NCBI RefSeq assembly: GCF_004122735.1
Contig: NZ_SDIF01000018.1
Location: forward strand, 1 to 64,000
Direction: 5' to 3'
Source: Streptomyces sioyaensis
GTDB lineage: Bacteria; Actinomycetota; Actinomycetes; Streptomycetales; Streptomycetaceae
Length of the DNA stretch: 64,000 nucleotides
The position numbers and the translations under genes were made by a program. The notes under the pieces are model-generated. The model worked only from the letters and a program-made list of their open reading frames with translations, was not told the DNA's origin and did not search any database. This document shows positions 1 to 51,727 of the stretch, piece after piece. Position 1 is the stretch's first letter. Each line of letters opens with the position of its first letter.

Positions 1-81
1 AACAACCCCCACAACTCCTCCGGCGACCCCACCCCACCAGGGAACCGACAACTCATCGCCACAATCGCCACCGGCTCATCC
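1..81 (-). other. Module 10 ketosynthase, N-terminal start only
   Basis: The last visible codons of PKS D read [20 protein letters not shown], the invariant opening of a PKS ketosynthase. This shows that at least one further extension module follows module 9 on the same polypeptide. Its AT and reductive domains are not visible. Confidence 0.93.
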
Positions 82-23200: not shown

Positions 23201-23211
23201 CCCTCGCTCAC
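11275..23211 (-). CDS. Type I modular polyketide synthase C (modules 6 and 7)
   Basis: Takes the chain from PKS B and passes it to PKS D. It has 3978 residues. GTG start 23211 is supported by AAGGGAG seven bases upstream. Residues 1-32 are a coiled-coil N-terminal docking segment (start [17 protein letters not shown]), nearly the same as in PKS B. Domains with active residues: KS6 (Cys205), AT6 (Ser679), DH6 (dead, Arg979 for His), KR6 (Tyr1594), ACP6 (Ser1763), KS7 (Cys1994), AT7 (Ser2463), DH7 (His2776), ER7 (loop near 3358), KR7 (Tyr3684), ACP7 (Ser3855), then a C-terminal docking tail ending [17 protein letters not shown]. That tail differs from those of PKS A and B, as expected if it pairs with the distinct N-terminus of PKS D. 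A 362-bp gap with a terminator and a palindromic box separates this gene from PKS B, so it probably has its own promoter. Confidence 0.98.
11511..17748 (-). other. Module 7: KS-AT(malonyl)-DH-ER-KR-ACP
   Basis: Fully reducing extension module. AT has [11 protein letters not shown] and HAFHS (malonyl). DH shows [16 protein letters not shown] and [10 protein letters not shown], so it looks active. ER has [15 protein letters not shown] has LDD (B-type) and Tyr in ANYAAANAF. Expected outcome: an acetate unit and a fully saturated beta carbon. The ER and the first half of the KR are almost identical to module 9. Confidence 0.94.
12324..13344 (-). repeat. ER-KR duplicated segment, copy in module 7
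   Basis: Partner of 941-1961 (constant offset 11383 bp). The KR sequence diverges completely after the LDD motif, so the second half of KR7 has a different history from that of KR9. Confidence 0.92.
17787..23115 (-). other. Module 6: KS-AT(malonyl)-DH(inactive)-KR-ACP
   Basis: KS (DTACSSSL) and AT ([16 protein letters not shown], malonyl) look intact. The DH has Arg at residue 979 where the catalytic His belongs ([10 protein letters not shown] instead of HxxxGxxxxP), and the usual YGPxF stretch is missing from a shortened segment. [10 protein letters not shown] is still present. KR has LDD (B-type) and Tyr in GNYAAGNAF. The ACP serine is in [10 protein letters not shown]. Expected outcome: an acetate unit with a retained beta-hydroxyl. 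Confidence 0.9.
20248..20283 (-). other. Degenerate DH active site of module 6 (His to Arg)
   Basis: The coding strand reads [13 protein letters not shown]. In modules 5, 7 and 9 the same place reads DH or EH followed by the HxxxGxxxxP pattern. The base that makes an essential His in PKS dehydratases is absent, so dehydration is not expected here. Confidence 0.88.
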
Positions 23212-29500: not shown

Positions 29501-32500
29501 CGTCCGCGACGACCAGGAACGTCTCGTCCTCGTCCAGGGCCGTTTGCAAGGCGGAGACGGCCAGGTCGGGATCCATCGGCGGCACTCCGTCGCGGCGCAG
29601 CCGCTCCGCCAGTTCCTCGCCCACCAGACCGCCGCCGCCCCAGGCTCCCCAGGCGATCGAGGTCGCGGGCAGTCCCTCGGCGCGGCGCTGCAGGGCGAGC
29701 GCGTCCAGGCAGGCGTTCGCCGCCGCATAGCTGCCCTGGCCGGGACCACCGAGCGTGCCCGCCATGGAGGAGAACAGGATGAACGCCGAGAGGTCCAGAT
29801 GCCGGGTCGCCTCGTGAAGGGCGAACGCGGCGCCCGCCTTGGGCTCCCACACGGTCCCGGCGCGGTCCGCGGTGAGCTGGTCGATCACCCCGTCGTCGAG
29901 GACTCCCGCCGTATGCACCACCGCCGTCAGCGGCTGCTCCTGCGGCAGGCTCGCGACGAGTGCCGCCACCGCCTCCCGGTCACCGACATCACAGGCCCGC
30001 ACGGTCGCCCGCGCGCCGAGCCCGGCCAGCTCCTCGACGAGTTCGGCGGCACCCGGCGCCTCGGGGCCCCGGCGGCTGACGAGTACGAGATGCTCCGCAC
30101 CGTTGCGGGCGAGCCAGCGGGCGAGATGCCCGCCCAACGCGCCCGTACCACCGGTGACCAGGACGGTGCCGCGCGGCCGCCAGCCCTCACCGGCCGGCCG
30201 GTCACCCGGGAGCGACCGCACCATCCGGCGGGTGAAGACACCGGAACCGCGCAGCGCCACCTGGTCCTCGCCGCGGGTCCGCGCCAGCAGGGCGACCAGC
30301 CGGCGCCCGGCCCGCTCGTCCACCTCACCCGGCAGATCGACGAGCCCGCCCCACCGCTGCGGATATTCGAAGGCGGCGATACGGCCCAGCCCCCACGCCA
30401 TCGCCTGCGTCGGGTGAGCAACGGCATCGGCGCGGTTGACCGACACCGCACCCCGGGTCGCACACCACAGCGGAGCGTCGATCCCGGCATCACCGAGCGC
30501 CTGGAGCAGCGACGTCATCAGGACCAGCCCGGCCGGCAGGCTCTGGGGGGCGGTCCACGGCTGCTCGTCCAGGGCCACCAGGGACAGCACCCCGGCAATC
30601 GCCCCGGCCGCCGTCCCCGCCTCGTCCCGCAGGCGGCCCGCGAGCCGTTCCCGGTCGGCGTCCTCCGTGCCGACGATCAGGGTCCGGATGTCCACGTCGC
30701 CCGACCGGAGCGCGCCGACGACACCCTCGACCACCGGGGCGTCCTGGTGGCCCTCCGGTACGACCACCAACCACGTACCGTCCAAGCCGGTGCGCTCGGG
30801 CTCGGGTTGGGGCCGCCAGACGATCCGGTAGCGCCAGCCGTCGACCGTGCTGCGCCGCTGCCGCTGCTGGTGCCACAGCGAGAGCGCGGGCAGCACCTCG
30901 CGCAGCGCACCGTCGTCGGACAGCCCGAGCGTCTCGGCGAGCGTGTCCGCGTCCCCGCGCTCGATGGTCTCCCAGAATCCGGCATCGACGACTCCCGAAG
31001 CACCCGACCCGGCTGCGGGCTTGGGCGATTCGAGCCAGTAGCGGCGGTGCTGGAAGGCGTACGTGGGCAGGTCCACGAGCCGCGGACCTGCGGCGGCGAA
31101 GGCCGGGGACCAGTCCACCTCCACCCCGTGTACGTACAGCTCACCGAGGGAGGCGTAGAGCCGCGACAGACCACCGTCGTCACGACGCAACGTGCCCGAC
31201 ACCACGGCATCCGCGCCCGCCGCCTCGGCCGTCTCCTGCACCGGCATCGTCAGCACGGGATGTGGGCTGACCTCCACAAACACCCGATGATCCGCAGCCA
31301 GCAGCGCACGCACCGCAGGCTCCAACCGCACCGTCTGCCGCAGATTGGTGAACCAGTACCCGGCATCCATCTCCGCCGTGTCCAGCCACTCCCCCGTCAC
31401 CGTCGAAAAGAACGGCACGGACGACGTCCGGGGGGCGACCGGCGCCAAGACCTCCAGCAACTCCTCGCGAATCGACTCCACATGAGCCGAGTGCGAGGCG
31501 TAATCCACCTCGATGCGACGCGCACGCACCTCGCGCTCCTTGCACCCGTCCATCAGCTCGTCGAGCGCATCCGCATCGCCGGAGACCACCACGGACGACG
31601 GGCCGTTGACCGCCGCCACCGAAATCCGACCGCCCCAGGGCTCGATCAGGTCCGATACGTCGGACGAGGGCAGGGCCACCGACACCATTCCGCCACGACC
31701 CGACAGCGCACGGATCGCCTTACTCCGCAGCGCCACCACCCGGGCGCCATCCTCCAAGCTCAGGGCACCTGCGACGCAGGCCGCGGCGATCTCCCCCTGA
31801 CTGTGACCGACGACCACCGCGGGCTCCACACCATGGGCGCGCCACACCTCCGCCAGCGACACCATCACGGCCCACAACACCGGCTGCACCACATCCACCC
31901 GGTCCAGACCCGGCACGCCCTCATCCCCACGCAACACCCCAGTCAGCGACCAATCGACAAACGGCTCCAACGCCGCCTCACACTCCGCCAACCGACCCGC
32001 AAACACCGACGAGGAATCCAACAACTCCACCGCCATACCGACCCACTGCGACCCCTGACCCGGGAAGACGAACACCGTCCTGCCCGGGTCACCCACCGCA
32101 GTCGTGGGGCTCAACTGCCTCAGCTTTTCGGCCAGTTCATCAATCTCCGAGCCCACGACGACCGCCCGGTGCTCGAACGACGACCGCGAAGCCACCAACG
32201 ACCAACCCACATCAGCCGGCGACCAGTCGGCGTCCGTCACCCGCGACGCCAACCGCTCCGCCTGCGCCACCAACGCGTCGGCGGAACGCCCGGACACCAC
32301 CCACGGCACGAGCACGCCGCCCGAGGCCGAAGCCGAAGCCGACGGAACAGGCTCCCCTTCCTCAGCCATCGTCGCCTGCTCGGACTCCTCCGCCTGCTCG
32401 ACGATCACATGCGCATTGGTCCCGCTCACGCCGAACGAGGAGATGCCGGCACGGCGCGGACGGTCCTCTACAGCCGTCCACGGCCGAGCCTCGGTCAGCA

Positions 32501-35500
32501 GCTCCACCGCGCCCGACGACCACTCCACATGCGGCGACGGTTCGTCGGCGTGGAGCGTCGCCGGCAGCTCGCCGTGGCGTAGCGCCTGCACCATCTTGAT
32601 GATCCCGGCCATGCCGGAAGCGGCCTGGCTGTGTCCGATGTTCGACTTGACCGAGCCGAGCCACAGCGGCCGGTCCGCGGCACGCTCCTGCCCGTACGTG
32701 GCGAGCAGCGCCTGCGCCTCGATCGGATCGCCCAACGACGTGCCCGTACCGTGCGCCTCCACCGCATCCACCTCACCGGCCGACAGACCGGCATTGGCCA
32801 GCGCGGCCCGGATGACCCGCTGCTGGGAGAGGCCGTTGGGAGCGGTGAGGCCGTTGGACGCACCGTCCTGGTTGACCGCCGTCCCGCGGACGACCGCCAG
32901 CACCCGGTGGCCGTTGCGGCGGGCGTCCGAGAGGCGTTCCACCAGCAGTACGCCGACGCCCTCGGCCATGCCCATACCGTCGGCCGACGCCGAGAACGGC
33001 TTGCACCGCCCGTCCCGCGCCAGCCCCCGCTGCCGGCTGAAGCCCACGAGGCCGATCGGTTCGCTCATCACCGCTGCGGCTCCGGCGATCGCCAGGGAGC
33101 ACTCCCCGGAGCGAAGTGCCTGCACTGCCAGATGCAGCGACACCAGTGAGGACGAACAGCCCGTGTCCAGCGTGACCGCGGGGCCTTCCAGTCCGAGCGT
33201 GTAGGAGATGCGGCCGGAGGCAATGCTCGTCACCGTTCCGGTGATGAGGTGCCCCTCCAGTCCTTCGGGGGCTTCGCCCGTGCCGTACCCCTGGTAGGCG
33301 GCTCCGAAGAAGACGCCGGTCGGGGTGCCGCGCAGGGTTCGGGGGTCGATGCCGCCGCGCTCGATCGCCTCCCAGGAGGTCTCCAGGAGGAGCCGCTGCT
33401 GCGGGTCCATGGCGAGGGCCTCGCGCGGCGAGATCCCGAAGAACTCGGGGTCGAAGTCACCGGCCGCGTCGAGGAATCCGCCCTCGCGGACGTAGCAGGT
33501 ACCTGTGCGGTCCGGGTCCGGGTCGTAGAGCCCGTCGAGGTCCCAGCCTCGGTCGGCGGGGAACTCCGAGATCGCGTCCGTCCGTTCCCGCACCAGCTGC
33601 CACAGGTCCTCGGGCGACTGCACGCCTCCGGGGTAGCGGCAGGCCATGGACACGATCGCGATGGCGTCGTCCTCGGCCGGGGCGGCGGGGGCCACGGTTT
33701 CCGGGGCGGCGGCCGGTACGGACAGGGCGCCGCTCGCACCGACCAGGGTGGTCTCCAGATGCCCGGCGAGCGACTTCACGGTCGGATGGTCGAAGACCAC
33801 GGTGGCGGGGAGCTTCAGTCCGGTGGCCGCGTTGAGCCGATTGCGCAGCTCCACCGCGGTGAGGGAGTCGAAGCCCAGCTCGCGGAAGGCGCGGCCGACC
33901 TCGACCTCCGAGGTGTCCGAGTACCCGAGTACGGCCGCGACCTGCTTGCGTACGAGGTCGGCGAGCTGCCGCTCACGTTCGGCCGGAGCCAGCCCGGCGA
34001 GCTGGGTGCGGAGCGACTCGGCGGTGCTTTCGGCGGCGTCCGTGTCGGCCTCGTCGGCCTCCAGTGCCCGCAGTACCTCGGGGACCTCGTGCAGCAGCGG
34101 GCGGCGGTGCGCGGCGGTGAAGACGGGGACGAAGCGTTCCCAGTCGATGTCGGCCACGGCGAGGAAGGTCTCATCGTGATCGAGCGCCTGCTGGAGTCCC
34201 AGTACGGCCAGGTGCGCAGGCATGAACGGAATGCCGCGCCAGCGCAGCTGTTCCTGGACCACATCGACGGCCATCCCGCCGCCTTCCGGGCTCCAGATAC
34301 CCCAGGCGATCGAGGTACCCGTCAGGCCGCGGGCGCGCCGGTGTGCGGCGAGCGCGTCGACGTAGGAGTTCGACGCCGCGTACGCACCGTGGTCTCCACT
34401 GCCCCAGGTTCCGGCGACGGACGAGTACAGCACGAAGGCATCGAGTCCGTCGCGGTCGAAGAGTGCGTCGAGGTTGCGGGCACCGAGCAGCTTGGCGCGG
34501 GCCCCCTCGGCGAACTCCTGCAGCGTGGTGTCGGCGAGCGGCACGAGCAGGCCGACGCCGGCGGTGTGCACGACGGAGCGGATGGCCGGGCCGTCCGACT
34601 CGACCTGGGCGACCAGCTCGGCCAGCGCATCGGCGTCCGTCACATCGCAGGCGGCGATGGTGACGCGGGCGCCCAACTCGGCGAGTTCGTCCCGCAGTTC
34701 GGCCGCGCCCGGCGCGTCCGGGCCACGCCGGCTGGTCAGCACCAGATGCTCGGCGCCGCTACGGGCGAGCAGCCGGGCGGTGTGCGCACCGAGACCACCG
34801 GTACCGCCGGTGACCAGGGCAGCTCCGCTGGTACGCCAGGGGGTGGCCGGCTCGCCACCGTCCAGTGGGGCGCGGGTCAGCCGGCGAGTGAGGAGCGCGG
34901 AACCGCGGAGGGCAAGCTGGTCCTCCTCCCCACCCGCCGCGAGGACACCGGACAGCAGGGCCGCACCACGGTCGTCCAATGCGGCGGGCAGATCGACGAG
35001 TCCGCCCCACTGCTTGGGGTGCTCCAGGGCGAACACCCGGGCCAGGCCCCAGACGGCGGCCTGGAGCGGGTGCCGGACCGCGTCGTCGGAGGAACCGGTG
35101 GCGGCGGACTCGGTCGTGAGCAGCCACAGCGGGGCCTCGACGTCGACGTCGAGGAGCGCCTGCATCAGGGCCACGGACTGCACCAGTCCAACGGTGACTT
35201 CGGGGAACTCGGTCAGCGGCCGCTCGTCCAGGGCGAGGAAGGAAAGGACGCCGCTGGGGGCGCCGGTCGTCAGGGAGTGTCGCAGCTGGTCGGCCACGCC
35301 TCCGCGGTCGGTGGTCGAGTCCTCAAGAACGAGGAGTACGGTCTCGGCGCCGTTGTCCCCGATGCTCTGGAGAGTGGCGCGTACGAGGTCGTTGTCCAGG
35401 TAGTCGGCGGGGACCACGACGAGCCAGGGTCCCGCCAACTTGGCTTGTTCGGGCTCGGGTTGGGGCCGCCAGGCGATCCGGTAGCGCCAGCCGTCGACCG

Positions 35501-38459
35501 TGCTCCGCTGCTGCCGACCCTGCCGCCACGACGACAGCGCCGGCAACACCTCACGCAACGCCCCCGCATCCGCCAGCCCCAACGTCGCCGCCAGACCCTC
35601 CAGATCCTCCCGCTCCACCGTCTCCCAGAACCGCACATCCACCGGATCAACCACACCGGCCACCGACGACTGACCCGACTCCAGCCAGTAGCGGCGGTGC
35701 TGGAAGGCATACGTAGGCAGGTCCACGAGCCGCGGACCTGCGGCGGCGAAGGCCGGGGACCAGTCCACCTCCACCCCGTGTACGTACAGCTCACCGAGGG
35801 AGGCGTAGAGCCGCGACAGACCACCATCGTCACGACGCAACGTGCCGGTCACCACGGCATCCGCGCCCGCCGCCTCGGCCGTCTCCTGCACCGGCATCGT
35901 CAGCACGGGATGTGGGCTGACCTCCACAAACACCCGGTGATCCGCAGCCAGCAGCGCACGCACCGCAGGCTCCAACCGCACCGTCTGCCGCAGATTCGTA
36001 AACCAGTACCCGGCATCCATCTCCGCCGTGTCCAGCCACTCCCCCGTCACCGTCGAAAAGAACGGCACGGACGACGTCCGGGGAGCGACCGGCGCCAAAA
36101 CCTCAAGCAACTCCTCGCGAATCGACTCCACATGAGCGGAATGCGAGGCGTAATCCACCTCGATGCGACGCGCACGGACCTCGCGCTCCTTGCACCCGCC
36201 CATCAGCTCATCCAGCGCATCCGCATCGCCCGAGACCACCACGGACGACGGGCCATTGACCGCCGCAACCGAAACCCGACCACCCCAGGGCTCGATCAGA
36301 TCCGACACCTCGGACGAGGACAGCGCCACCGACACCATCCCACCACGACCCGACAGCGCACGGATCGCCTTGCTGCGCAGGGCAACCACCCGGGCGCCAT
36401 CCTCCAAGCTCAACGCCCCGGCCACACACGCCGCGGCAATCTCCCCCTGGCTGTGGCCGACGACCGCCGCAGGCTCTACGCCATGGGCCCGCCACACCTC
36501 CGCCAGCGACACCATCACCGCCCACAACACCGGCTGCACCACATCCACCCGGTCCAGACCCGGCGCACCCTCAACCCCCCGCAACACCCCAGTCAGCGAC
36601 CAATCGACAAACGGCTCCAACGCCGCCTCACACTCCGCCAACCGACCCGCAAACACCGGCGAAGAATCCAACAACTCCACCGCCATACCGACCCACTGCG
36701 ACCCCTGACCCGGGAAGACGAACACCACATCGGCGTCCCCCTCCAGGGCGTCCGCGTCGCCCACCACCGCACCGGCGGGGGTCTCGCCCTCCGCCACGGC
36801 GCGCAGTCCGGCGACCAGTGCGTCCTGGTCGGTGCCCACCACCACGGCTCGATGCTCAAGTGCCGCGCGCGAGGCCACCAGCGCATGCCCGGTGTCCACC
36901 GGCGACCGGCCGGCGGTCTCCGCCCACGACGCCAGTCGCTCTGCCTGCGCACGCAAGGCCGTCGCGGAGCGTCCGGAAACCACCCAGGGCAGCGCGGCGG
37001 GCGCGGCCCGCTGTACGGGGGCGGCCGCTGCGAGCTGCTCGTCGGCGGATTCGTCGGCAGGTTCCTCGACCGGTGCCTGTTCGAGCAGGACATGGGCGTT
37101 GGTGCCGCTGCCGCCGAAGGACGACACACCGGCCCGCCTGGGCGCGTCGGTCTCGGGCCAGGCGGTCTCGTCGGTGAGCAGCCGGACGTTCCCCGTCGAC
37201 CAGTCCACATGCGGTGAGGGCGCGTCGACGTGGAGCGTCGGGGGCAGTACGCCATGGCGTATCGCCTGCACCGTCTTCATCACTCCGGCGATGCCGGAGG
37301 CGGCCTGTGCATGTCCGATGTTCGACTTGAACGAGCCGAGCCACAGCGGCCGGTCCGCGTCGCGGTCCTTGCCGTACGTGGCGAGCAGCGCCTGGGCCTC
37401 GATGGGGTCGCCGAGCGTGGTGCCCGTACCGTGTGCCTCCACCGCGTCCACCTCACCGGCGGACAGACCGGCATTGGCCAGCGCGGCCCGGATGACCCGC
37501 TGCTGGGAGGGACCGTTCGGCGCGGTCAGACCGTTCGAGGCACCGTCCTGGTTGGTGGCGCTGCCGCGGATGACCGCGAGTACCGGATGGCCGTTGCGGC
37601 GGGCCTCCGACAGGCGCTCCAGCAGCAGGACGCCGACGCCTTCGCCCCATGCGGTGCCGTCGGCGGCCGCGGCGAACGGCTTGCACCGGCCGTCTCGCGC
37701 GAGCCCCCGCTGCCGGCTGAACTCCACGAAGTTCCGTGCCGAGGACATCACGGTCGCTCCGCACGCGAGCGCCATCTCGCACTCGCCGTGCCGCAGCGCC
37801 TGGACGGCCAGATGGAGGGCGACCAGCGAGGACGAGCACATGGTGTCGACGGTGACGGCCGGCCCCTCCAGCCCGAAGCTGTAGGCGAGCCGTCCGGAGA
37901 GCACGGCCGCCGAACCTCCGGTCAGCAGATGGCCCTCGACGCCCTCCGGGGCGGTGTTCCCGTCGGCGGCAGCGGCGTAGCCCTGGTTGCTGGACCCGAC
38001 GAAGACGCCGGCTGCGCTGCCGCGTACCGATGTCGGGTCGATGCCCGCACGCTCGAAGGCCTCCCAGGAGGTCTCCAGGAGGAGCCGCTGCTGCGGGTCC
38101 ATGGCCAGGGCCTCGCGCGGGGAGATCTCGAAGAAGCCGGCGTCGAACTCCGGGGCGTCGTAGAGGAAGCCGCCCTGGCGGACATAGCTGCTGCCCGCGC
38201 GGTCGGGGTCCGGGTCGTAGAGCTTGTCCACGTCCCAGCCGCGGTCGGTCGGCATGGGCCCGATGGCGTCGGTGCCCTCGGCCACCATCCGCCACAGCTC
38301 TTCGGGGGAGGCCACTCCTCCCGGAAGGCGGCAGGCCATCGCGACGATCGCAATGGGATCGTGCTCTCGCGACTCCACCTCCTGCAGCCTGCGGCGGGTC
38401 TGCCGCAGGTCCGTGGTGACCCGCTTGAGGTAGTCGCGGAGCTTGTCCTCGTTGTCCAT
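23574..38459 (-). CDS. Type I modular polyketide synthase B (modules 3, 4 and 5)
   Basis: Extends the chain delivered by PKS A through three condensations. It has 4961 residues. ATG 38459 has GAAGGG ten bases upstream. Residues 1-33 are an N-terminal coiled-coil docking segment (start [18 protein letters not shown]). Domains with active residues: KS3 (Cys208), AT3 (Ser670), KR3 (Tyr1360), ACP3 (Ser1532), KS4 (Cys1768), AT4 (Ser2220), KR4 (Tyr2911), ACP4 (Ser3075), KS5 (Cys3307), AT5 (Ser3767), DH5 (His4072), KR5 (Tyr4669), ACP5 (Ser4838). The C-terminal docking tail ends QASDDELFDFIENELGGS, very like that of PKS A. Starter-side modules 3-4 are methylmalonyl type and module 5 malonyl, so the switch from propionate to acetate units occurs inside this protein. 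It lies 46 bp after PKS A with no terminator between, implying cotranscription. Confidence 0.98.
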   Translation of the reverse strand: MDNEDKLRDYLKRVTTDLRQTRRRLQEVESREHDPIAIVAMACRLPGGVASPEELWRMVAEGTDAIGPMPTDRGWDVDKLYDPDPDRAGSSYVRQGGFLYDAPEFDAGFFEISPREALAMDPQQRLLLETSWEAFERAGIDPTSVRGSAAGVFVGSSNQGYAAAADGNTAPEGVEGHLLTGGSAAVLSGRLAYSFGLEGPAVTVDTMCSSSLVALHLAVQALRHGECEMALACGATVMSSARNFVEFSRQRGLARDGRCKPFAAAADGTAWGEGVGVLLLERLSEARRNGHPVLAVIRGSATNQDGASNGLTAPNGPSQQRVIRAALANAGLSAGEVDAVEAHGTGTTLGDPIEAQALLATYGKDRDADRPLWLGSFKSNIGHAQAASGIAGVMKTVQAIRHGVLPPTLHVDAPSPHVDWSTGNVRLLTDETAWPETDAPRRAGVSSFGGSGTNAHVLLEQAPVEEPADESADEQLAAAAPVQRAAPAALPWVVSGRSATALRAQAERLASWAETAGRSPVDTGHALVASRAALEHRAVVVGTDQDALVAGLRAVAEGETPAGAVVGDADALEGDADVVFVFPGQGSQWVGMAVELLDSSPVFAGRLAECEAALEPFVDWSLTGVLRGVEGAPGLDRVDVVQPVLWAVMVSLAEVWRAHGVEPAAVVGHSQGEIAAACVAGALSLEDGARVVALRSKAIRALSGRGGMVSVALSSSEVSDLIEPWGGRVSVAAVNGPSSVVVSGDADALDELMGGCKEREVRARRIEVDYASHSAHVESIREELLEVLAPVAPRTSSVPFFSTVTGEWLDTAEMDAGYWFTNLRQTVRLEPAVRALLAADHRVFVEVSPHPVLTMPVQETAEAAGADAVVTGTLRRDDGGLSRLYASLGELYVHGVEVDWSPAFAAAGPRLVDLPTYAFQHRRYWLESGQSSVAGVVDPVDVRFWETVEREDLEGLAATLGLADAGALREVLPALSSWRQGRQQRSTVDGWRYRIAWRPQPEPEQAKLAGPWLVVVPADYLDNDLVRATLQSIGDNGAETVLLVLEDSTTDRGGVADQLRHSLTTGAPSGVLSFLALDERPLTEFPEVTVGLVQSVALMQALLDVDVEAPLWLLTTESAATGSSDDAVRHPLQAAVWGLARVFALEHPKQWGGLVDLPAALDDRGAALLSGVLAAGGEEDQLALRGSALLTRRLTRAPLDGGEPATPWRTSGAALVTGGTGGLGAHTARLLARSGAEHLVLTSRRGPDAPGAAELRDELAELGARVTIAACDVTDADALAELVAQVESDGPAIRSVVHTAGVGLLVPLADTTLQEFAEGARAKLLGARNLDALFDRDGLDAFVLYSSVAGTWGSGDHGAYAASNSYVDALAAHRRARGLTGTSIAWGIWSPEGGGMAVDVVQEQLRWRGIPFMPAHLAVLGLQQALDHDETFLAVADIDWERFVPVFTAAHRRPLLHEVPEVLRALEADEADTDAAESTAESLRTQLAGLAPAERERQLADLVRKQVAAVLGYSDTSEVEVGRAFRELGFDSLTAVELRNRLNAATGLKLPATVVFDHPTVKSLAGHLETTLVGASGALSVPAAAPETVAPAAPAEDDAIAIVSMACRYPGGVQSPEDLWQLVRERTDAISEFPADRGWDLDGLYDPDPDRTGTCYVREGGFLDAAGDFDPEFFGISPREALAMDPQQRLLLETSWEAIERGGIDPRTLRGTPTGVFFGAAYQGYGTGEAPEGLEGHLITGTVTSIASGRISYTLGLEGPAVTLDTGCSSSLVSLHLAVQALRSGECSLAIAGAAAVMSEPIGLVGFSRQRGLARDGRCKPFSASADGMGMAEGVGVLLVERLSDARRNGHRVLAVVRGTAVNQDGASNGLTAPNGLSQQRVIRAALANAGLSAGEVDAVEAHGTGTSLGDPIEAQALLATYGQERAADRPLWLGSVKSNIGHSQAASGMAGIIKMVQALRHGELPATLHADEPSPHVEWSSGAVELLTEARPWTAVEDRPRRAGISSFGVSGTNAHVIVEQAEESEQATMAEEGEPVPSASASASGGVLVPWVVSGRSADALVAQAERLASRVTDADWSPADVGWSLVASRSSFEHRAVVVGSEIDELAEKLRQLSPTTAVGDPGRTVFVFPGQGSQWVGMAVELLDSSSVFAGRLAECEAALEPFVDWSLTGVLRGDEGVPGLDRVDVVQPVLWAVMVSLAEVWRAHGVEPAVVVGHSQGEIAAACVAGALSLEDGARVVALRSKAIRALSGRGGMVSVALPSSDVSDLIEPWGGRISVAAVNGPSSVVVSGDADALDELMDGCKEREVRARRIEVDYASHSAHVESIREELLEVLAPVAPRTSSVPFFSTVTGEWLDTAEMDAGYWFTNLRQTVRLEPAVRALLAADHRVFVEVSPHPVLTMPVQETAEAAGADAVVSGTLRRDDGGLSRLYASLGELYVHGVEVDWSPAFAAAGPRLVDLPTYAFQHRRYWLESPKPAAGSGASGVVDAGFWETIERGDADTLAETLGLSDDGALREVLPALSLWHQQRQRRSTVDGWRYRIVWRPQPEPERTGLDGTWLVVVPEGHQDAPVVEGVVGALRSGDVDIRTLIVGTEDADRERLAGRLRDEAGTAAGAIAGVLSLVALDEQPWTAPQSLPAGLVLMTSLLQALGDAGIDAPLWCATRGAVSVNRADAVAHPTQAMAWGLGRIAAFEYPQRWGGLVDLPGEVDERAGRRLVALLARTRGEDQVALRGSGVFTRRMVRSLPGDRPAGEGWRPRGTVLVTGGTGALGGHLARWLARNGAEHLVLVSRRGPEAPGAAELVEELAGLGARATVRACDVGDREAVAALVASLPQEQPLTAVVHTAGVLDDGVIDQLTADRAGTVWEPKAGAAFALHEATRHLDLSAFILFSSMAGTLGGPGQGSYAAANACLDALALQRRAEGLPATSIAWGAWGGGGLVGEELAERLRRDGVPPMDPDLAVSALQTALDEDETFLVVADVDWHKATARQVAAVSELPEVQASAGAGADEAAARGDAAPLVARLRERAPAERRAALLDDVRAAAAAVLGYDRPDAIPADRAFRDLGYDSLTAVELRNRLAEATGLRLPVTLVFDHPTATALTSFLHDGLFGAVPERAEAAAPAVPVDDDPVVIVGMSCRYPGQADSPEELWRLLDGGTDAVSGFPTNRGWDIERLYDPDPDKPGTFYARDGGFLYDADHFDPAFFGISPREAVAIDPQQRLLLETSWEAIERAGIDPEVLRGTAAGVFVGSNYNDYGSRAHTAPEGMEGYLATGSASSVASGRIAYTFGLEGPAVTVDTACSSSLVALHLATQALRSGECTLALAAGVTVISTPQTFIEFSRQRALAPDGRCKAFSADADGAGWAEGVGVVLLERLSEARRRGHPVLAVVKGTAVNQDGASNGLTAPNGPSQQRVIRQALANAGLAAGDIDAVEAHGTGTQLGDPIEAQALLATYGQERPAERPLWLGSIKSNIGHTQAAAGVAGVIKMVQAMRHGVLPRTLHAARPSPHIDWSAGNVRLLSEPQEWTPGDGPRRAGVSAFGISGTNAHVILEEPEPVAVEPGATPQGSLPETPDAPAAVVPWLLSARGATALRAQGRRLAEHLARHPELAPADVALSLATSRTAFEDRAALLGRNTDELTEVLLAFAEGREHPRVAVDRARGGKLAFLFPGQGSQRAGTGRSLYATHDAFADALDAVCAHLDGHLDRPLREVLFAEPGTPEAELLDRTVYTQAGLFALEVALFRLLESYGVHPDLLLGHSIGELAAAHVAGVFSLTDACALVAARGRLMQALPAGGAMVSVQAAEEDVLPLLAPYEDRVALAAVNGPAAVVLSGDEDAVAELEGHLAAAGHRTKRLRVSHAFHSAHMDAMLDEFAAVAAELDYQPPTTPVVSNVTGRPATAEELCSPAYWVRHVRQAVRFHEGARTLEELGARTLLDLGSGVLTAMADECLTTDGISLGAVLRRDTDEAESLTTALAHLHLRGHGPDWDRCLAPSGARRVPLPTYPFQRQRYWLEAGTDLTDVSAVGLQAAGHPLLGAAVPLAGSGGALFTGLLSAGRQPWLADHALDGTLLFPGTGFLELALQACARTGAGHLEELTLQAPLVVPEDGTVQLQLTVGDPDESGRRPLSVHSRPATRPDDEGQPWTRHAEGTLADGPPETGTPETGTPTDLTAWPPPGAEPVDVSDLYERTAANGFAYGPAFRGLEAAWRLGDEVFAEVTLPEQYRDTGFVLHPALLDAALHTVALAAPGTERAVLPFSFRAVTAAPAAHPDTLRVRLVRQADDTYAVQLADASGAPLAAIPALVLRPVDPAQLAAAGPKPADLYRMDWADLPLSGPPAEQYAVLGTDGVPEVPEGHGARYAELSALAAAVDAGAEVPATVLVGCPPTDGDPAEATRRAVHHALDLAQAWLSDERFSASRLVLCTRDAVAERAGATVSGLPHSAAWGLLRTAKAENPGRFGLLDHDGTARSAAALPAALATGEPEIALRDGAARVPRLVRARAAEPFRGLGTDGTVLITGAGGMLGRLVARHLVTAHGVRGLLLASRRGRTADGMPELEKELRELGAEVEIAACDLADRDDTARLLASVSAERPLTAVVHTAGVLDDGVIGSLTPDRMDTVLRAKADAVLHLDELTRDLDLTAFVLFSSLAGTFGGVGQGNYAAANAFLDAFAHARRAAGRPAVSLAWGLWAERSGMTTKLDETDLHRMARGGVRPMPSEQALALFDAALATKEAFLVPAKLDLAALQSAAGEVPPLLRSLTAPRPPAGRPAPAAVAEAGQLGTRLAGLPERDRRQAVLDAVLGQAALVLGHTSADAIDPERGFLELGFDSLTAVELRNRLTTVTGTRLPATLLFDYPEPGGLADHLLGRLAAAVEQQSADGGAVSGPLDAWEAQAERLMDDTAARAALRSRLQGLMDRLDSLPGDPDAELENRLDQASDDELFDFIENELGGS
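23810..29065 (-). other. Module 5: KS-AT(malonyl)-DH-KR-ACP
   Basis: First malonyl module of the line ([16 protein letters not shown]). DH looks active: HALDGTLLFP, AYGPAF and [10 protein letters not shown] are all present. KR has a slightly unusual nucleotide loop (GAGGMLG rather than GGTGxLG), LDD (B-type) and Tyr in GNYAAANAF. There is no ER. Expected outcome: a double bond at the incoming beta carbon. Confidence 0.93.
29100..33675 (-). other. Module 4: KS-AT(methylmalonyl)-KR-ACP
   Basis: KS has Cys in LDTGCSSSL. AT has GHSQGEIAAAC and YASHS (methylmalonyl). No DH is present. KR has LDD, so B-type, with Tyr in GSYAAANAC; KR1-KR3 lack LDD. ACP serine is in [10 protein letters not shown]. 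Expected outcome: a methyl-branched unit with a beta-hydroxyl of the B configuration. Confidence 0.92.
31028..32076 (-). repeat. Methylmalonyl AT repeat block, module 4 copy
   Basis: Nearly identical to module 3 at 35678-36726 with a constant offset of 4650 bp. It spans the post-AT linker, the YASHS region, the GHSQG active site and the AT N-terminus. One of five such blocks. Confidence 0.9.
33730..38360 (-). other. Module 3: KS-AT(methylmalonyl)-KR-ACP
   Basis: KS has Cys in DTMCSSSL. AT has GHSQGEIAAAC and YASHS (methylmalonyl). KR lacks LDD and has TWGSGDHGAYAASN, with Trp eight and His three residues before the catalytic Tyr, the A2-type fingerprint as I recall it. Catalytic Ser, Tyr, Asn and Lys are all visible, so it is probably active. 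Expected outcome: a methyl-branched unit with a beta-hydroxyl. Confidence 0.92.
35459..36726 (-). repeat. Methylmalonyl AT repeat block, module 3 copy
   Basis: Aligns with module 2 (40485-41752, offset 5026 bp) through the post-AT linker and the GHSQG end, and with module 4 (offset 4650 bp) through the middle. Different stretches match different neighbours, so the block is a mosaic. Confidence 0.9.
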
Positions 38460-38505
38460 GTAGCGTCAGCCCTTCAAGAAACCGGCGGTCGGTGTACGTT
38501 CCGGA

Positions 38506-41500: not shown

Positions 41501-44500
41501 TCTACGCCATGGGCCCGCCACACCTCCGCCAGCGACACCATCACCGCCCACAACACCGGCTGCACCACATCCACCCGGTCCAAGCCCGGCGCACCCTCAT
41601 CCCCACGCAACACAGGAGTCAGCGACCAGTCCGTGAACGGCTCCAACGCCGCCGCACACTCCGCCAACCGACCCGCAAACACCGGCGAGGAATCCAACAA
41701 CTCCACCGCCATACCGACCCACTGCGACCCCTGACCCGGGAAGACGAATACCGTCTTGCCCGGATCGCCGATCGCAGCAGTCGTGGGGCTCAACTGCCTC
41801 AGCTTTTCGGCCAGTTCATCAATCTCCGAGCCTACGACGACCGCCCGGTGCTCGAACGACGACCGCGAAGCCACCAACGACCAACCCACGTCAGCCGGCG
41901 ACCAGTCGGCGTCCGTCACCCGCGACGCCAACCGCTCCGCCTGCGCCACCAACGCATCGGCAGAACGCCCGGACACCACCCACGGCACCACCACACCCGC
42001 ACCGGAAGCCGAAGACGACGAAGCAGACTCCCCTCCATCAGCCGACTTCGCCTGCTCGACGATCACATGCGCATTGGTCCCGCTGATGCCGAAGGACGAG
42101 ATGCCGGCGCGGCGCGGACGGTCCTCTTCCGCCGTCCACGGCCGGGCCTCGGTCAGCAGCTCCACCGCGCCCGACGACCACTCCACATGCGGCGACGGCT
42201 CGTCCACATGCAGGGTCGCCGGCAACTCGGCGTGCCGCATGGCGAGCACCATCTTCATGACACCGGCCACGCCGGAAACGGTCTGGGTGTGCCCGATGTT
42301 CGACTTGACCGAGCCGAGCCACAGCGGCCGGTCCGCGGCACGCTCCTGCCCGTACGTGGCGAGCAGCGCCTGCGCCTCGATCGGATCGCCCAACGACGTG
42401 CCCGTACCGTGCGCCTCCACCGCGTCCACCTCACCGGCCGACAGTCGGGCATCGGCGAGCGCGGCCCGGATCACCCGCTGCTGGGAGGGACCGTTGGGTG
42501 CGGTGAGGCCGTTGGACGCACCGTCCTGGTTGATCGCCGTCCCGCGGACGACCGCCAGCACCGGGTGCCCGTTGCGGCGGGCGTCCGAGAGGCGTTCCAC
42601 CAGCAGTACGCCGACGCCCTCGGAGAGGGCAAAGCCGTCGGCCGCCGCCGAGAACGGCTTGCACCGTCCGTCCCGCGCCAGCCCCCGCTGCCGGCTGAAG
42701 CCGAGGAACGGTCCGGGATCAGCCATGATCATCGCGGCTCCCGCGACGGCGAGCGAGCACTCCCCCGAGCGGAGTGCTCGCACCGCCATGTGCAAGGCGA
42801 CCAGAGACGACGAGCACGCCGTGTCGACCGTGACGGCTGGACCTTCCAGGCCGAGCGTGTAGGCGACCCGGCCGGATGCGACGCTCGCGGCCGCTCCGGT
42901 CGCGAGATATCCCTCGATCTGCTCGGCGGCCGCCATGCGCAGGCGGTTCCCGTACTCCTGATCGGTGACGCCCATATAGACGCCGGTCCCGCTGCCGCGC
43001 AGGGATTTGGGGTCGATGCCCGCGCGCTCGAAGACCTCCCAGGAGGTCTCCAGGAGGAGCCGCTGCTGCGGGTCCATGGCGAGGGCCTCGCGCGGCGAGA
43101 TCCCGAAGAACTCGGCGTCGAAGTCACCGGCGTCGCGCAGGAATCCGGACTCCCGGACGTAGCTCCGGCCCGGCTGATCGGCATCGGGGTCATAGATGCC
43201 GTCCAGGTCCCATCCGCGGTCGGTGGGGAAGGCCGACATCGCGTCGACGCCGTCCCGGACCAGCCGCCACAGGTCCTCGGGCGACTGCACGCCCCCCGGA
43301 TAACGGCAGGCCATGGACACGATGGCGATCGGGTCGTCGTCCGCGGGGAGCGGCACGAGGGCGGGGGACGTGGCCGGCTTCGCGGCGGGTTCCTCCCCGC
43401 CGGTCAGTTGGGCCTCGACGTAGCCGGCGAGCGCTGCCGGGCTGGGATGGTCGAACACGACGGTCCTGGGCAGCCGCAGGCCAGTGGCCCGGCTCAGGCG
43501 GTTGCGCAGCTCGACGGCGGTAAGCGAGTCGAAGCCCAGCTCCTTGAAGGGGCGTTCGGAGTCCACGGGGGCCGTCTTGTCGTGACCGAGCACGGAGGCG
43601 ACCTGTTCGCGGACGAGATCCAGCAGTGCTGCGGTGCGCTGCCGGACATCGAGTCCGGTCAGCTTCTCGGCGAGCGGCGACCGGGCAGAGCCGCGCTCGT
43701 TCCCGCTGCCGTCGGCTCCGGGTCCGTCTCCGTCCTCGTCCGCCACGAGTTGCGGGATCTCCGTGAGCAGGCGGCTGGGCCGTACCGAGGTGAAGACGCT
43801 GTTGAAGCGCCGCCAGTCCACGTCGGCGACCGCGATCGAGGTCTCGTCGTGGTCGAGCGCCTGCTGGAGCGCGGTGAGGGCGGTGTCCGGGTCGATGACG
43901 GGCACCCCGCGGCGCCGCAGCACCTCGTGGATCGAGTCGGCGATCATGCCGCCGCCCGCCCAGGGGCCCCAGGCGACCGACAGCACCGGCAGTCCGTCGG
44001 CCCGCCCGCGTTCGGCACGGGCGTCGAGGAGCGCGTTGGCGGCGGCGTACGCGCCGTGATCGGCCACTCCCCAGGTGCCGGAGATGGAGGAGAAGTAGAC
44101 GACGGCGTCGAGTTGTGCGGGATCGAGTGCGGAGGACAGATGGTCGGCTCCGGCGACCTTGCCCGCGAGCGCCGCCGCGAGGTCTGCCGGCCCGGCCTCC
44201 GCCAGCGAGCCGAGGGCGCTGACACCGGCGGCGTGCACCACTGCCCGGACCGGGCCGTGGTCCTGCTCGATCTGCCGTACGAGGTCCGCCACCGCCTGCC
44301 GATCGGCGATGTCGCAGCCCGCCACGGTGACCTGGACACCCTGGTCACGGAGTTCGGAGCACAGTGCGGCCACGCCGGGGACATCGGCGCCACGACGGCC
44401 GGTGAGGACGAGGTGTTCCGCGCCGTTGGCGGCGAGCCAGCGGGCGATATGGGCACCGAGCGCTCCGGTGCCACCGGTGACGAGGACGGTGCCGCGGGGG

Positions 44501-47500
44501 CGCCAGGAGCGCCGCGGGGGCTTCCCGGCGGCCGGTGCGGGGACCAGCCGCCGCCCGAACACGGCCCCACGGACGGCGAGTTGATCCTCGTCGCCCCCGG
44601 CTGCCAGGATCCGCGCCAGCAGCGCGACTGCCTGATCGTCTGCCGTCGTCTGACCGTGTGCGGCCACCTGACCGCCGGCCTGGCCGGGCAGGTCGATGAG
44701 CCCGCCCCAGCGCTCCGGATGCTCCAGCGCGGCGACCCGGCCGAGACCCCAGATCCCGGCCTGGTCGGGGTTCGTCGGCGCATCGTCCTCGCCGGCGGGT
44801 CCACCCGGGGAGGCACTCGTGGAGGCACAGGTGGCAGCCTCAGCAGTGGTACCGACCGCGACCGCGCCTCGGGTGACGCACCACAGCGGGGCCTCGATCC
44901 CGGCGTCGCCGAGGGCCTGGAGCAGTGCGAGGGTGAGCGAAAGACCGCTGGGAACGCAGGGGTGGGTACGGCCCGGCCGTTCGTCCAGGGCGAGCAGCGA
45001 CAGCACACCGGCAAAGGGACCGGGCCCGGCACGCAGCAGATCCGCGAGCCCGGCACTGTCGTCCACGTTCACCGTCAGCGAGTGGGTGCGTGCGCCGGCT
45101 TCTGCCAACGCCTCGCGGGCGCCGTGCACCAGCGCGTCGTTCTCGTACCCGGCCGGAACCACCACGAGCCAGTCGCCGTCGAGTTGCCGGGCAGCCGGCT
45201 CCGAGAGGGGCCGCCACACGACGCGATAGCGCCAGCCGTCCGCGGTTCCCCTCTGCCGCCGATTCCGGTGCCACGACGACAGCGCAGGCAGCACATCGTC
45301 CAGTGCCTCGGCGCGGGGCAGCCCGAGAGTGCCCGCCAGCGTCGCCGCGTCCTGGTCCCCGACGGCCGTCCAGAACGCCTCTTCCTCCGGGGAGGCGGCC
45401 ACGGCCGGGGCATCCGGCTCCAGCCAGAACCGCTGCCGCTGGAATGCGTACGTCGGCAGCTCCACCCGGTGCGGGCGGCGGTCGGCGAACGCGGGAGACC
45501 AGTCGACGTCCACGCCGTGCGCGTACAGCACACCGAGTGAGGTGTAGAGCCGGTCGAGGCCTCCGTCGTCCCGGCGAAGGGTGCCGGTCACCACCGCGTC
45601 CGCGCCCTCGTCCTCGACGGTTTCCTGAAGCGGGACGGTGAGTACGGGATGCGGGCTGACCTCCACGAAGGTACGGTGGCCGGCCGCGATGAGGGCTTCG
45701 ATGGCGGGCGCGAACTCCACCGTCCGCCGCAGGTTGGTGAACCAGTACCCGGCATCCATCTCCGCCGTGTCCAGCCACTCCCCCCTCACCGTCGAGAACA
45801 TCGGCACGGACGACTTCCGGGGCGCAACCGGCGCCAAAACCTCCAGCAACTCCTCGCGAATCGACTCCACATGAGCCGAGTGCGAGGCGTAATCCACCTC
45901 AATGCGACGCGCGCGCACCTCGCGCTCACGACACCCAGTCATCAACTCGTCGAGCGCATCCGCATCGCCGGAGACCACCACGGACGACGGGCCGTTGACC
46001 GCCGCCACCGAAACCCGACCGCCCCACGGCTTGATCAGGTCCGACACCTCGGAGGAGGACAGCGCCACCGACACCATCCCGCCACGACCCGACAGCGCAC
46101 GGATCGCCTTACTCCGCAGGGCGACCACCCGGGCGCCATCCTCCAGACTCAACGCCCCGGCCACACACGCCGCGGCAATCTCCCCCTGGCTGTGACCGAC
46201 GACCACCGCGGGCTCCACACCATGGGCGCGCCACACCTCGGCCAGCGACACCATCACGGCCCACAACACCGGCTGCACCACATCCACCCGGTCCAAGCCC
46301 GGCGCACCCTCATCCCCCCGCAACACCCCAGTCAGCGACCAATCGACAAACGGCTCCAACGCCGCCTCACACTCCGCCAACCGACCCGCAAACACCGGCG
46401 AAGAATCCAGCAACTCCACCGCCATACCGACCCACTGCGACCCCTGCCCCGGGAAGACGAAGACGGCTCCTGCCCCGGGGGAAGTGGGTACGACGCCGGT
46501 GACGGTGTGGGGGCCGGGGTCGCCCTCGGCCACGGCGTGCAGCTCCGCGAGCAGTGCGGCGCGGTCGGCGCCGATGAGCGCCGCTCGGTGTTCCAGTGCC
46601 GCGCGAGTGGTGAGCAAGGAGTGCGCGACGTCGTAGGGCGCGGCGTCGGGGAGGGAGACGAGATGGGCGGCGAGTGCGGCTGCCTGTGCGCGCAGTGCTT
46701 CGGGGGTCCGGCCGTGCACGACCCATGGCACGACGGGCTGGTCCGCGCTTCCGGTGCTGCCGCCGTCCGCTGTTTCCGCGCCGTCCTGGCCTTCGTCGAA
46801 CTGACCCTGGTCGCCGTCCTGGCCCTGGTCGAACTGCTCCTGGTCGCCGTCCTGGCCCTCGTCGTCGGCCCGTTCGTCCGGGAGCGTTGCCGGCGGCTGT
46901 TCCACGATCACATGCGCATTGGTGCCGCTGATGCCGAACGACGAGACGCCGGCCCGGCGCACCTGCCCGTTCTCCTCCCACGGCTGGGCCGCGGTGAGCA
47001 GCCGAACCGTGTCCGCCGACCAGTCCACGTGCGGGGACGGTGCGTCGAGGTGCAGGGTTTCCGGGAGGACGCCGTGTCGCAGGGCGAGCACCATCTTGAT
47101 GACCCCGGCGACACCGGCGGCGGCCTGGGTGTGCCCGATGTTGGACTTGAGCGAGCCGAGCCACAGCGGCCGGTCCGCGTCGCGGTCGCTGCCGTACGTG
47201 GCGAGCAGCGCCTGCGCTTCGATGGGGTCGCCGAGCGCCGTGCCGGTGCCGTGCGCCTCGACCGCGTCGACCTCGGAGGGCCGCAGCCCGGCAGCGGCCA
47301 GCGCGGCCCGGATCACGCGTTCCTGCGAGGGGCCGTTGGGGGCGCTGAGGCCGTTCGAGGCGCCGTCCTGGTTGGTGGCGCTGCCGCGCAGCACGGCAAG
47401 CACGGGGTGGCCGTGGCGGCGGGCCTCCGAGAGGCGTTCCAGCAGCAGGATCCCGGCGCCCTCGCCCCATGCGGTGCCGTCGGCGGCCGCGGCGAACGGC

Positions 47501-50500
47501 TTGCACCGGCCGTCGGGCGCGAGCCCCCGCTGCCGGCTGAACTCCACGAACATGCCGGGCCGCGACATCACCGTCGCCCCGCCGGCGAGCGCGAGTGTGC
47601 ACTCTCCCGCGCGCAGGGCCTGCGCCGCGAGGTGCAGCGCCACCAGGGAGGAGGAGCACGCCGTGTCCACGGTGATGGCCGGTCCTTCGAGACCTAGCGT
47701 GTAGGCGATCCGCCCGGAGGCCACGCTCGTGGTCGTTCCGGTCAGGACATGGCCCTCGACCTGGTGGCCCGCCTGGTGCAGCCGGGGGCCGTACTCCTGC
47801 GCCATGGCACCGACGAACACGCCCGTGAGGCTGCCGCGGACGCCCGTCGGGTCGATGCCTGCGCGTTCCAGCGCCTCCCAGGAGGTCTCCAGCAGAAGCC
47901 GCTGCTGCGGGTCCATCGCCAGGGCCTCGCGCGGCGAAATCCCGAAGAACCCGGCGTCGAACGAGGCGGCGTCGAGGAACCCGCCCTCGCGTACGTAGCT
48001 GGTGCCCGAGTGTTCGGGGTCGGGGTCGTACAGCCCGTCGGTGGGCCAGCCCCGGTCGGTGGGGAACGGTGACACAGCGTCCACCCGGTCCCGCAGAAGC
48101 TGCCAGAGGTCGTCGGGCGACTGCACGCCACCGGGGTAGCGGCAGGCCATCGCGACGATGGCGATCGGCTCGTCGGGGTCGGTGGCCGGGCCGTGCACCG
48201 GCTCCAAGGTGTGGGGGGCGCCGAGGAGTTCGGCGTCGATATAGCCGGCCAGCCGGGTGGGTGAGGGATGGTTGTACAGCGCCGTGGACGGCAGCCGTAC
48301 CGTGAGGGCGCGGTTCAGCCGGTTCCGCAGCTCCACGGCGGTGACCGAGTCGAAGCCGAGATCCTTGAATGTCCGGCCCATGTTGAGCGCGGAGGGTTCC
48401 CGGTGGCCGAGCACGGCGGCTGCGTGGTCCCGTACGACGTCGAGTGTCGGTCGGTTCGTCCCGGGGCTGTCGGTCGTGGGGTCGACGGGCCGGCCCGGCT
48501 CGTCGGTGGCGGTCCGGCGGGGGCGCTCGGCGGAGTGCTCCACCCAGTGCCGCTCACGCTGGAAGGCGTAGGTGGGCAGGTCCACGAGCCGGGGACGGTG
48601 GGCAGCGAAGGCCGGGGACCAGTCGACGTCCACGCCCTGCGCATACAGCTCGCCGAGTGAGGCGTAGAAGCGGGCGAGGCCGCCCTCACCGCGGCGCAGG
48701 GTGCCCACGACCGCCCCCTCGGCGCCCGCGGCCTCGACCGTCTCCTGTACCGGCATGGTCAGGACGGGGTGCGGGCTGACCTCGACGAATGTGTGGTGGC
48801 CGGCCGCGGTGAGGGCTTCGATGGCGGGCGCGAACTCCACGGTCCGGCGCAGGTTGGTGAACCAGTACCCGGCATCCATTTCCGTCGTATCCAGCCAGTC
48901 GCCCGTCGTCGTCGAGAACAGCGGCACGGACGACTTCCGGGGCACGACCGGCGCCAGGACCTCCCTCAGCGTCTCCTCGATCGACTCCACATGCGCCGAA
49001 TGCGAGGCGTAATCCACCTCGATCCGGCGCGCACGGACTTCACGCTCCCGGCACTCCTCCACCAGCCGGCCCAGAACATCGTCATCACCGGAGACCACCA
49101 CCGACGACGGACCATTGACCGCCGCAACCGAAACCCGTCCATCCCACGGCTCGATCAACTCCTCCACGTCAGGCCGGGGCAGCGCCACCGACACCATTCC
49201 GCCCCGGCCGGACAGCGCACGGATCGCCTTACTGCGCAGCGCCACCACCCGGGCGCCATCCTCCAAGCTCAACGCCCCGGCCACACACGCCGCGGCAATC
49301 TCCCCCTGGCTGTGGCCGACGACCGCCGCAGGCTCCACGCCATGGGCCCGCCAAACCTCCGCCAGCGACACCATCACCGCCCACAACACCGGCTGCACCA
49401 CATCCACCCGGTCCAAGCCCGGCGCACCCTCATCCCCCCGCAACACCGCAGTCAGCGACCAGTCCGTGAACGGCTCCAACGCCGCCGCACACTCCGCCAA
49501 CCGACCCGCAAACACCGGCGAGGAATCCAGCAACTCCACCGCCATACCGACCCACTGCGACCCCTGACCCGGGAAGACGAACACCGTTCCGCCGGAGTGG
49601 TCGGTCGCTTCGCCGAGTGTGACGGCGGCATCGGGACGTCCCTCCGCCACCGCCCGCAATCCGGCGGTCAGTTCGCCGGGTTCCGCGCCCACGACGACGG
49701 CCCGGTGCTCGAACGACGACCGTGACGCCACCAACGACCAGCCCACGTCAGCCGCCGACAGCCCCCTCCCGGCCACCCGCGACGCCAGCCGCTCCGCCTG
49801 CGCCGCCAGGGCTTCGGCAGTACGCGCGGACACCACCCATGGCACCACCCCACCGACACCCGTAGCCGACGACTGAGCCGAAGTGGAAGTGGAAGACGAC
49901 GAAGCAGACTCGCCTCCATCAGCTCCATCAGCTCCGTCCGCCGACTCGCCTCCGTCAGCCGACTCCGCGCCATCAGCCGACTCCGGCTGTTCGGACTCCT
50001 CGGTGCGCCCCACGATCAGATGCGCATTCGTGCCGCCCATTCCGAACGACGAGACGCCGGCGACGAGTTGCCGCCCCTCCTGCGCCGTCCATGCGCCGGA
50101 CTCGGTCTGCACCCGCAGGTTCAGGGCGTCGAGCGGGATGTCGGGGTGGGGGGTCGCGAAGTTCAGGCTCGGTACGAGGTGGCCGTGCTCCACGCACAGC
50201 ACCACCTTCAGCAGTCCCGCGATGCCGGCGGCGCCTTCCAGGTGGCCGATGTTCGTCTTGATCGAGCCCACCGGCAGCGGGGTGCTCCGTCGTGGGTCGG
50301 TGCCGAGAGCGGCGCCGAGCGAGGCGGCCTCGATGGGGTCGCCGACCTTGGTGCCGGTGCCGTGCAGCTCCACATAGCCGATGTCGCCGGGGTGGATGCC
50401 GGCGCGTGCGCAGGCCAGGCGCAGCACCTCTTCCTGCGCGGCGGCATCCGGGGTCGTGAGGCCGGGCCCGCCGCCGTCGTTGTTGACCGCCCCGCCGCGG

Positions 50501-51315: not shown

Positions 51316-51323
51316 CAATCGCA

Positions 51324-51329
51324 CTCCCT
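51324..51329 (-). promoter_or_regulatory. Ribosome-binding site deciding the PKS A start
   Basis: The minus strand reads AGGGAG, eight bases before ATG 51315. The in-frame GTG at 51324 overlaps the end of this site and so cannot use it. Confidence 0.75.
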
Positions 51330-51634: not shown

Positions 51635-51727
51635 TAGGTGAATGCCAGGACTCCCCGGTGCAGGCTGCGGGAGGAGAGGTCGGCGGCCGTCGGTGCCGTA
51701 CACACATCAGCGTGGAGGGGCGCAGTA

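Follow-up and report, generated by a model that had tools for sequence, protein, structure and literature searches.

Gene conversion between modules very probably keeps the acyltransferase (AT) domains of a modular polyketide synthase (PKS) of Streptomyces sioyaensis alike, while the ketosynthase (KS) and the ketoreductase-acyl carrier protein (KR-ACP) parts of the same modules diverge. This applies to the ATs of modules 1 to 4 (M1 to M4) and to the enoylreductase-ketoreductase (ER-KR) pair of M7 and M9, and it is seen separately in each of two species, S. sioyaensis and Streptomyces kronopolitis. The PKS lies in the window analysed here, 64,000 nucleotides at the start of contig 90 of a 7.85 Mb genome that is fragmented into 289 contigs. 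Its AT blocks are genetic repeats of intense nucleotide skews (GRINS).

Based on open reading frames (ORFs) and motifs, the minus strand contains four large PKS genes for a loading module (LM) and M1 to M9, and the line leaves the contig end within M10; Pfam matches are an additional basis for genes 1 and 2 only. The LM carries the KSQ motif DTAQSSSL. The ATs of LM and M1 to M4 have the motifs GHSQG and YASH, which we take to indicate the methylmalonyl type, and those of M5 to M9 have GHSIG and HAFH and are presumably of the malonyl type.

Exchange tracts in the five AT blocks

The first-pass annotation of this sequence had described the five methylmalonyl AT blocks as a mosaic that arose by gene conversion with changing partners. 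This description is supported by partner switching along the blocks, the pairwise homoplasy index (PHI), a GENECONV-style test, a breakpoint search and the orthologous cluster of S. kronopolitis. The GHSQG anchors are at 49317 (LM), 46197 (M1), 41484 (M2), 36458 (M3) and 31808 (M4). The offsets between them that had been reported (3120, 4713, 5026 and 4650) are exact, and the five blocks align without indels. Relative to the anchor, the stretch from about −330 to +690 has a high ungapped identity in all five. Block lengths had been estimated at 0.9-1.3 kb, which agrees with the 960-1380 bp obtained in the GRINS scan described below.

The best partner switches along the block. As had been claimed, M3 matches M2 in the post-AT linker (95-99% in 150-nt windows starting at +600 to +825, with a 166-nt exact run) and M4 in the middle (97-98% in the windows of this size that begin at +300 to +600). 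The match of M2 to M1 is also real (95% in the windows that begin at +375 and +450, with 87 nt exactly identical in a row), but it is located inside the C-terminal half of the AT and not at the end, whereas it had been placed around the AT C terminus. An exact run of 247 nt common to M2 and M3 spans the active site, and LM and M2 are 97-98% identical in the N-terminal part of the block. The loading AT exchanges mainly near its N terminus; its C-terminal part is not wholly closed to exchange, as seen from a 79-nt exact run with M2 at +294. Altogether, the longest exact runs between AT blocks are about 80-250 nt, and the edges of exchange are at about −270 to −330 and +690 nt around the AT serine, with longer stretches for M2 and M3.

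PHI gave P = 0.001 in S. sioyaensis and in S. kronopolitis, the floor of 1000 permutations. In the GENECONV-style test (column permutation, 2000 permutations) 7 of 10 module pairs of S. sioyaensis had a global P ≤ 0.005, and 4 of 10 pairs of S. kronopolitis had P ≤ 0.005. The breakpoint search, done on an 80-nt grid with up to six segments, revealed that a single tree fits the five blocks badly. One break raised the log likelihood (lnL) by 94 in S. sioyaensis (corrected Akaike information criterion (AICc) −162, Bayesian information criterion (BIC) −99) and by 75 in S. kronopolitis (AICc down 123, BIC down 61); AICc keeps dropping up to six segments and BIC favours two. In 20 simulations on a single tree, made for the S. 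sioyaensis tree only, the gain was at most 14.6 versus the 94 observed, a portion of which comes from branch lengths and not from topology.

The orthologous cluster of Streptomyces kronopolitis

The comparison with S. kronopolitis is a stronger proof of conversion than the misfit of a single tree. A locus of this species matches PKS gene 1 over its full length (85% in the best segment), and the extended locus contains all four PKS genes as far as the contig runs, with 87-90% nucleotide identity in aligned codons and the same module order and architecture. Among the matches listed (at least 539 candidates, 74 loci kept) only this locus was close (85%) and the next reached 63%; in 392 genomes of the same genus (own included, two candidates scored each) the best match to the upstream region outside the own genome was 75%; and a threshold of 1e-200 was passed by 4 of 61 genomes, the own genome being counted in both numbers, with 74% for the best of the others.

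The module alignment was scanned in 60-codon windows for modules with a paralogue closer than the orthologue. In six AT windows this was the case for 3-5 of the 5 modules, in both species alike, and in the 11 windows that cover 315-975 (post-AT linker, KR, ACP) for none. Window 255-315 had two such modules, resulting from the M2/M3 linker exchange, and the three KS-AT linker windows had 1-2 in S. sioyaensis and 0-2 in S. kronopolitis. Four of the 7 KS windows had none in either species, one had a single module in both and one a single module in S. sioyaensis only. Phylogenetic trees gave the same picture. The tree with orthologue pairs was within 0.4 lnL of the best for KS and within 0.0 lnL for KR-ACP, and species clades were worse by 1229 and 1869 lnL, respectively; M1 remains unpaired in the free KS tree (support 51). 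For the AT, orthologue pairing was worse by 98 lnL (P of the approximately unbiased (AU) test, 6e-4), and the best tree of the M1 to M4 ATs alone separates the two species (bootstrap 82). The pattern of concerted evolution, AT by cluster and KS by module, is thus seen for M1 to M4, but neither for most of the C-terminal part of the LM AT, which is closer to its own orthologue from about codon +75 on, nor for the five ATs taken together.

At fourfold sites, identity within S. sioyaensis was 0.768 in the AT versus 0.679 between orthologues (confidence interval (CI) of the difference 0.042 to 0.133), 0.568 versus 0.760 in KS and 0.471 versus 0.773 in KR-ACP. Some partner pairs recur in the two species, namely M2-M3 (active site and linker), M3-M4 and M1-M2; other choices differ, for example M2-M4 around +150 in S. 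kronopolitis, and exact runs are shorter there than in S. sioyaensis. The M7/M9 ER-KR pair is a cleaner case: in 11 windows of 30 codons, paralogues had identities of 0.94-1.00 (S. sioyaensis) and 0.89-1.00 (S. kronopolitis) and orthologues 0.74-0.94, and the order of paralogue and orthologue flips at a sharp edge at about position 12340. The malonyl ATs of M5 to M9 served as internal control; judged by nucleotide identities only, with no tree, orthologues (0.890) are closer than paralogues (0.691 in S. sioyaensis, 0.696 in S. kronopolitis). Taken together, the sequences of the two species point to a gene conversion that would be bounded by the domain and continuing in both lineages.

Several observations weigh against such a simple picture. 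Six of the 10 S. kronopolitis pairs fell short in the GENECONV-style test. AU tests over all 15 topologies rejected the whole-block topology at 0.05 in only 2 of 7 sub-segments in S. sioyaensis (370-690 and 610-690, which overlap) and 2 of 4 in S. kronopolitis (−270 to 130 and 130-210), the segments being picked from the same data as tested. The within-species mean of the S. kronopolitis ATs at fourfold sites (0.683) equals that of orthologues (0.679; CI of the difference −0.040 to 0.045) and is elevated solely in comparison with KS and KR-ACP. With all five ATs together species clades are rejected (pAU 0.005), and in these trees the LM AT groups across species. In the C-terminal third of the AT, the M3 and M4 sequences of the two species form one group, which points to an M3/M4 exchange that would be older than the split of the two species and followed by homogenisation within each. 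Finally, one KS window is homogenised in 3 of 5 modules in both species. Some homogenisation is thus found in KS sequence that has no skew, so that conversion is not limited to skewed blocks and on its own does not generate skew.

How else could the AT blocks have become so similar? If whole modules had recently been duplicated, the flanks would have been carried along. M1 to M4 are indeed alike in architecture and the best KS paralogues of S. sioyaensis are 70-95% identical, but the best KR-ACP paralogues have only 51-72%, orthologues are closest in both flanks and the KS and KR-ACP trees contradict duplication, which we regard as extremely unlikely. Shared selection or convergence of codon usage without recombination is hardly conceivable: all these ATs share the specificity motif and unusual third codon positions, but composition alone predicts a fourfold identity of 0.471 within the S. 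sioyaensis ATs (composition shuffle) versus 0.768 found, exact runs extend to 247 nt and partners switch within a single AT domain.

Import of AT blocks into one lineage from another cluster or strain would be in line with the fourfold identity of orthologues, which is lower inside GRINS (0.688 in AT, 0.671 in ER-KR) than outside (0.783). However, in BLAST searches against 85 of 91 loci (the six left out were own or S. kronopolitis loci) the five best-scoring matches per block outside S. kronopolitis were 71-75% identical and the best S. kronopolitis match 85-89%, other methylmalonyl ATs of the S. sioyaensis genome reached at most 69% over >700 bases, and among the loci examined there was no third cluster >90% identical to the S. 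sioyaensis blocks but not to the S. kronopolitis blocks. Import would also leave the mosaics within the cluster unexplained, and we consider it highly improbable. In a genome of 289 contigs, a short-read assembly could have copied or collapsed repeats, and the exact repeats of 345, 247, 179 and 166 nt are near short-read length. Such an artefact is nevertheless very unlikely, because the separately assembled S. kronopolitis cluster shows the same homogenisation of its ATs, with the same architecture, some of the same partners and shorter exact runs.

Nucleotide skew, mechanism and other repeats

GRINS were searched for after PMC9899208 (150-nt fragments, step 30, >80% mean identity over at least 500 bp, mean absolute skews >0.15), here with ungapped instead of pairwise-aligned identity. 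The PKS genes of S. sioyaensis contain 15 high-identity regions, seven of which are GRINS, namely all five AT blocks plus the ER-KR regions of M7 and M9. The other eight are KS repeats and all fail on GC skew. In S. kronopolitis (25.5 kb examined) five of 10 high-identity regions, again the five AT blocks, qualify. The S. sioyaensis AT blocks have mean best ungapped identities of 0.90-0.97 and mean absolute skews of 0.24-0.28 (GC) and 0.26-0.34 (TA); their signed whole-block skews (GC 0.20-0.27, TA 0.23-0.33) straddle the stricter wording, >25%, used in a part of PMC10394414. The coding strand of all five is G- and T-rich, and third codon positions of the ATs are G 0.57, C 0.26, T 0.15 and A 0.02, compared with C 0.52 and G 0.38 in KS. 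Gene conversion between the AT copies is seen in the recombination tests and the AT tree. A change of extender unit, a proposed role of GRINS and not a criterion for membership, was not seen: all 10 ATs of the two species keep GHSQG and YASH. The first-pass reading is extended in that the AT blocks are GRINS and conversion has taken place in both species; it had mentioned neither the skew nor the ER-KR family of M7 and M9, the unskewed KS repeats or the orthologous cluster.

Indel-free exchange, a module order that is the same in the two species and sharp edges at the domains are in line with non-crossover homologous recombination, presumably of the RecA type, that would repeatedly copy short tracts from module to module and so keep the ATs of one species alike. 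Crossovers would be absent because they would delete modules and presumably be lost. As none of the five ATs departs from the shared specificity motifs, the exchange would be chemically silent, as far as motifs tell, and its outcome nearly neutral.

It is tempting to speculate that the skewed blocks act as hotspots whose partners are fixed in part, and that the G and T richness of their coding strand stems from strand-asymmetric mutation or biased repair coupled with recombination there. The partner pairs that recur in two species, the lower fourfold identity of orthologues inside GRINS and the move of third positions from C-rich to G- and T-rich would fit. On the other hand, homogenised KS sequence has no skew, and unbiased conversion that sorts old differences between paralogues could also lower orthologue identity; we consider this coupling rather unlikely. 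In a test of polarised substitutions (138 fourfold sites) S. sioyaensis leaned to high-copy C-to-G changes. Because S. kronopolitis did not and mispolarisation is likely, we do not claim biased conversion.

Further repeats and features of the line are as follows. Weaker relatives of the M7/M9 ER-KR blocks (81% and 78%) are on contigs C69 and C88. The M9 malonyl AT is skewed in part, with +0.24 (GC) and +0.35 (TA) in one 100-codon window (3942-4541), and has a low orthologue fourfold identity of 0.60; its closest partners (75-85%) are on other contigs of the genome and, therefore, conversion may also occur in a family of malonyl ATs in another part of the line. The KS of M2 (42054-42744) and M4 (32394-33084) have an exact run of 131 nt in common, are up to 99% identical and show no skew, which is probably a homogenisation without GRINS. 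The M4 KS has the active-site variant DTGCSSSL at 33167, which is kept in S. kronopolitis. From M8 AT to KR (6001-9000) the coding strand has an opposite GC skew of about −0.25, and the repeat scan found no high-identity region there. Both assemblies break off where the M10 KS, one of the repeated domains, begins (window 1-90; end of contig 10, L090, in S. kronopolitis), by eye within a few dozen codons of each other. A gene for an NDP-hexose 2,3-dehydratase (51638-53146, plus strand; PF03559, E 1.8e-160) adjoins the PKS genes, which suggests that the product might carry a deoxysugar; it is followed by regulators of the GntR/FCD, LuxR and PAS-LuxR types. Coordinates are collected in Table 1.

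Table 1 PKS genes, GRINS blocks and exchange tracts in the window
Feature	Position	Strand	Basis
PKS gene 1: LM (KSQ-AT-ACP), M1, M2	38506..51324	-	ORF, motifs, Pfam
PKS gene 2: M3, M4 (methylmalonyl AT), M5 (malonyl AT)	23574..38459	-	ORF, motifs, Pfam
PKS gene 3: M6, M7 (malonyl ATs; ER in M7)	11275..23211	-	ORF, motifs only
PKS gene 4: M8, M9, start of M10; continues past contig end	3..11216	-	ORF, motifs only
AT GRINS block, LM	48654..49614	-	mean best identity 0.90, GC skew 0.21, TA skew 0.23
AT GRINS block, M1	45474..46494	-	mean best identity 0.92, GC skew 0.20, TA skew 0.30
AT GRINS block, M2	40434..41814	-	mean best identity 0.95, GC skew 0.23, TA skew 0.27
AT GRINS block, M3	35394..36744	-	mean best identity 0.97, GC skew 0.27, TA skew 0.33
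AT GRINS block, M4	31014..32334	-	mean best identity 0.93, GC skew 0.23, TA skew 0.32
247-nt exact M3 tract, common to M2 (41336-41582)	36310..36556	-	global P 0.0005 for M2-M3
166-nt exact M3 tract, common to M2 (40544-40709), post-AT linker	35518..35683	-	exact run
M3 tract common to M4 (31066-31433)	35716..36083	-	97-98% in 150-nt windows
87-nt exact M2 tract, common to M1 (45674-45760)	40961..41047	-	global P 0.0005 for M1-M2
ER-KR GRINS block, M7 (partner M9)	12264..13464	-	GRINS scan; 345-nt exact run with M9
ER-KR GRINS block, M9	894..2094	-	GRINS scan

Relation to known systems

A single line holds converting methylmalonyl ATs, malonyl ATs that are not homogenised (M5 to M9) and a second converting family, ER-KR, and a close relative, S. 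kronopolitis, repeats the natural experiment. GRINS are seen unusually clearly here because the related species shows the same in its own copy. The exchange edges mark junctions tolerated by natural selection and may help AT-swap engineering. With the pair of clusters one could also examine which comes first, the skew or the conversion, a question left open in those parts of the GRINS literature considered here. No title concerned with this cluster turned up in the literature searched.

GRINS and concerted AT evolution have been described before, and what is new is a well-controlled further example. The parts of the published accounts compared here describe GRINS as repeats of about 1 kb within one cis-AT PKS that have >80% identity and a strong skew of both GC and TA (Nivina et al. 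2021 PNAS, via PMC10394414), which are assumed to undergo gene conversion (PMC10394414, PMC9899208) and have been linked to late AT diversification (PMC11907408). The blocks of S. sioyaensis resemble them as skewed repeats of about 1 kb that convert within one PKS. Unlike in these accounts, which stress faster diversification (PMC10394414, PMC9899208), the visible effect here is homogenisation, because in each species it is ATs carrying identical motifs that exchange sequence.

In the sections of Medema et al. 2014 (PMC4256081) that bear on this, AT domains of several families branch by cluster and KS domains do not, and AT conversion between two meridamycin clusters is described. Similarly, the ATs of M1 to M4 branch by cluster and their KS by module position; tracts inside the domain, the skew, the malonyl-AT control and the second, ER-KR, family go beyond what is described there. 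Recombination between repeated PKS sequences is also the basis of the accelerated evolution of Wlodek et al. 2017 (PMC5663706), where, in the parts referred to, junctions in the AT region join modules of the same extender type. That recombination took place in the laboratory and altered the number of modules, giving contracted and expanded products, whereas here the module order is kept, which argues that the exchange is conversion-like.

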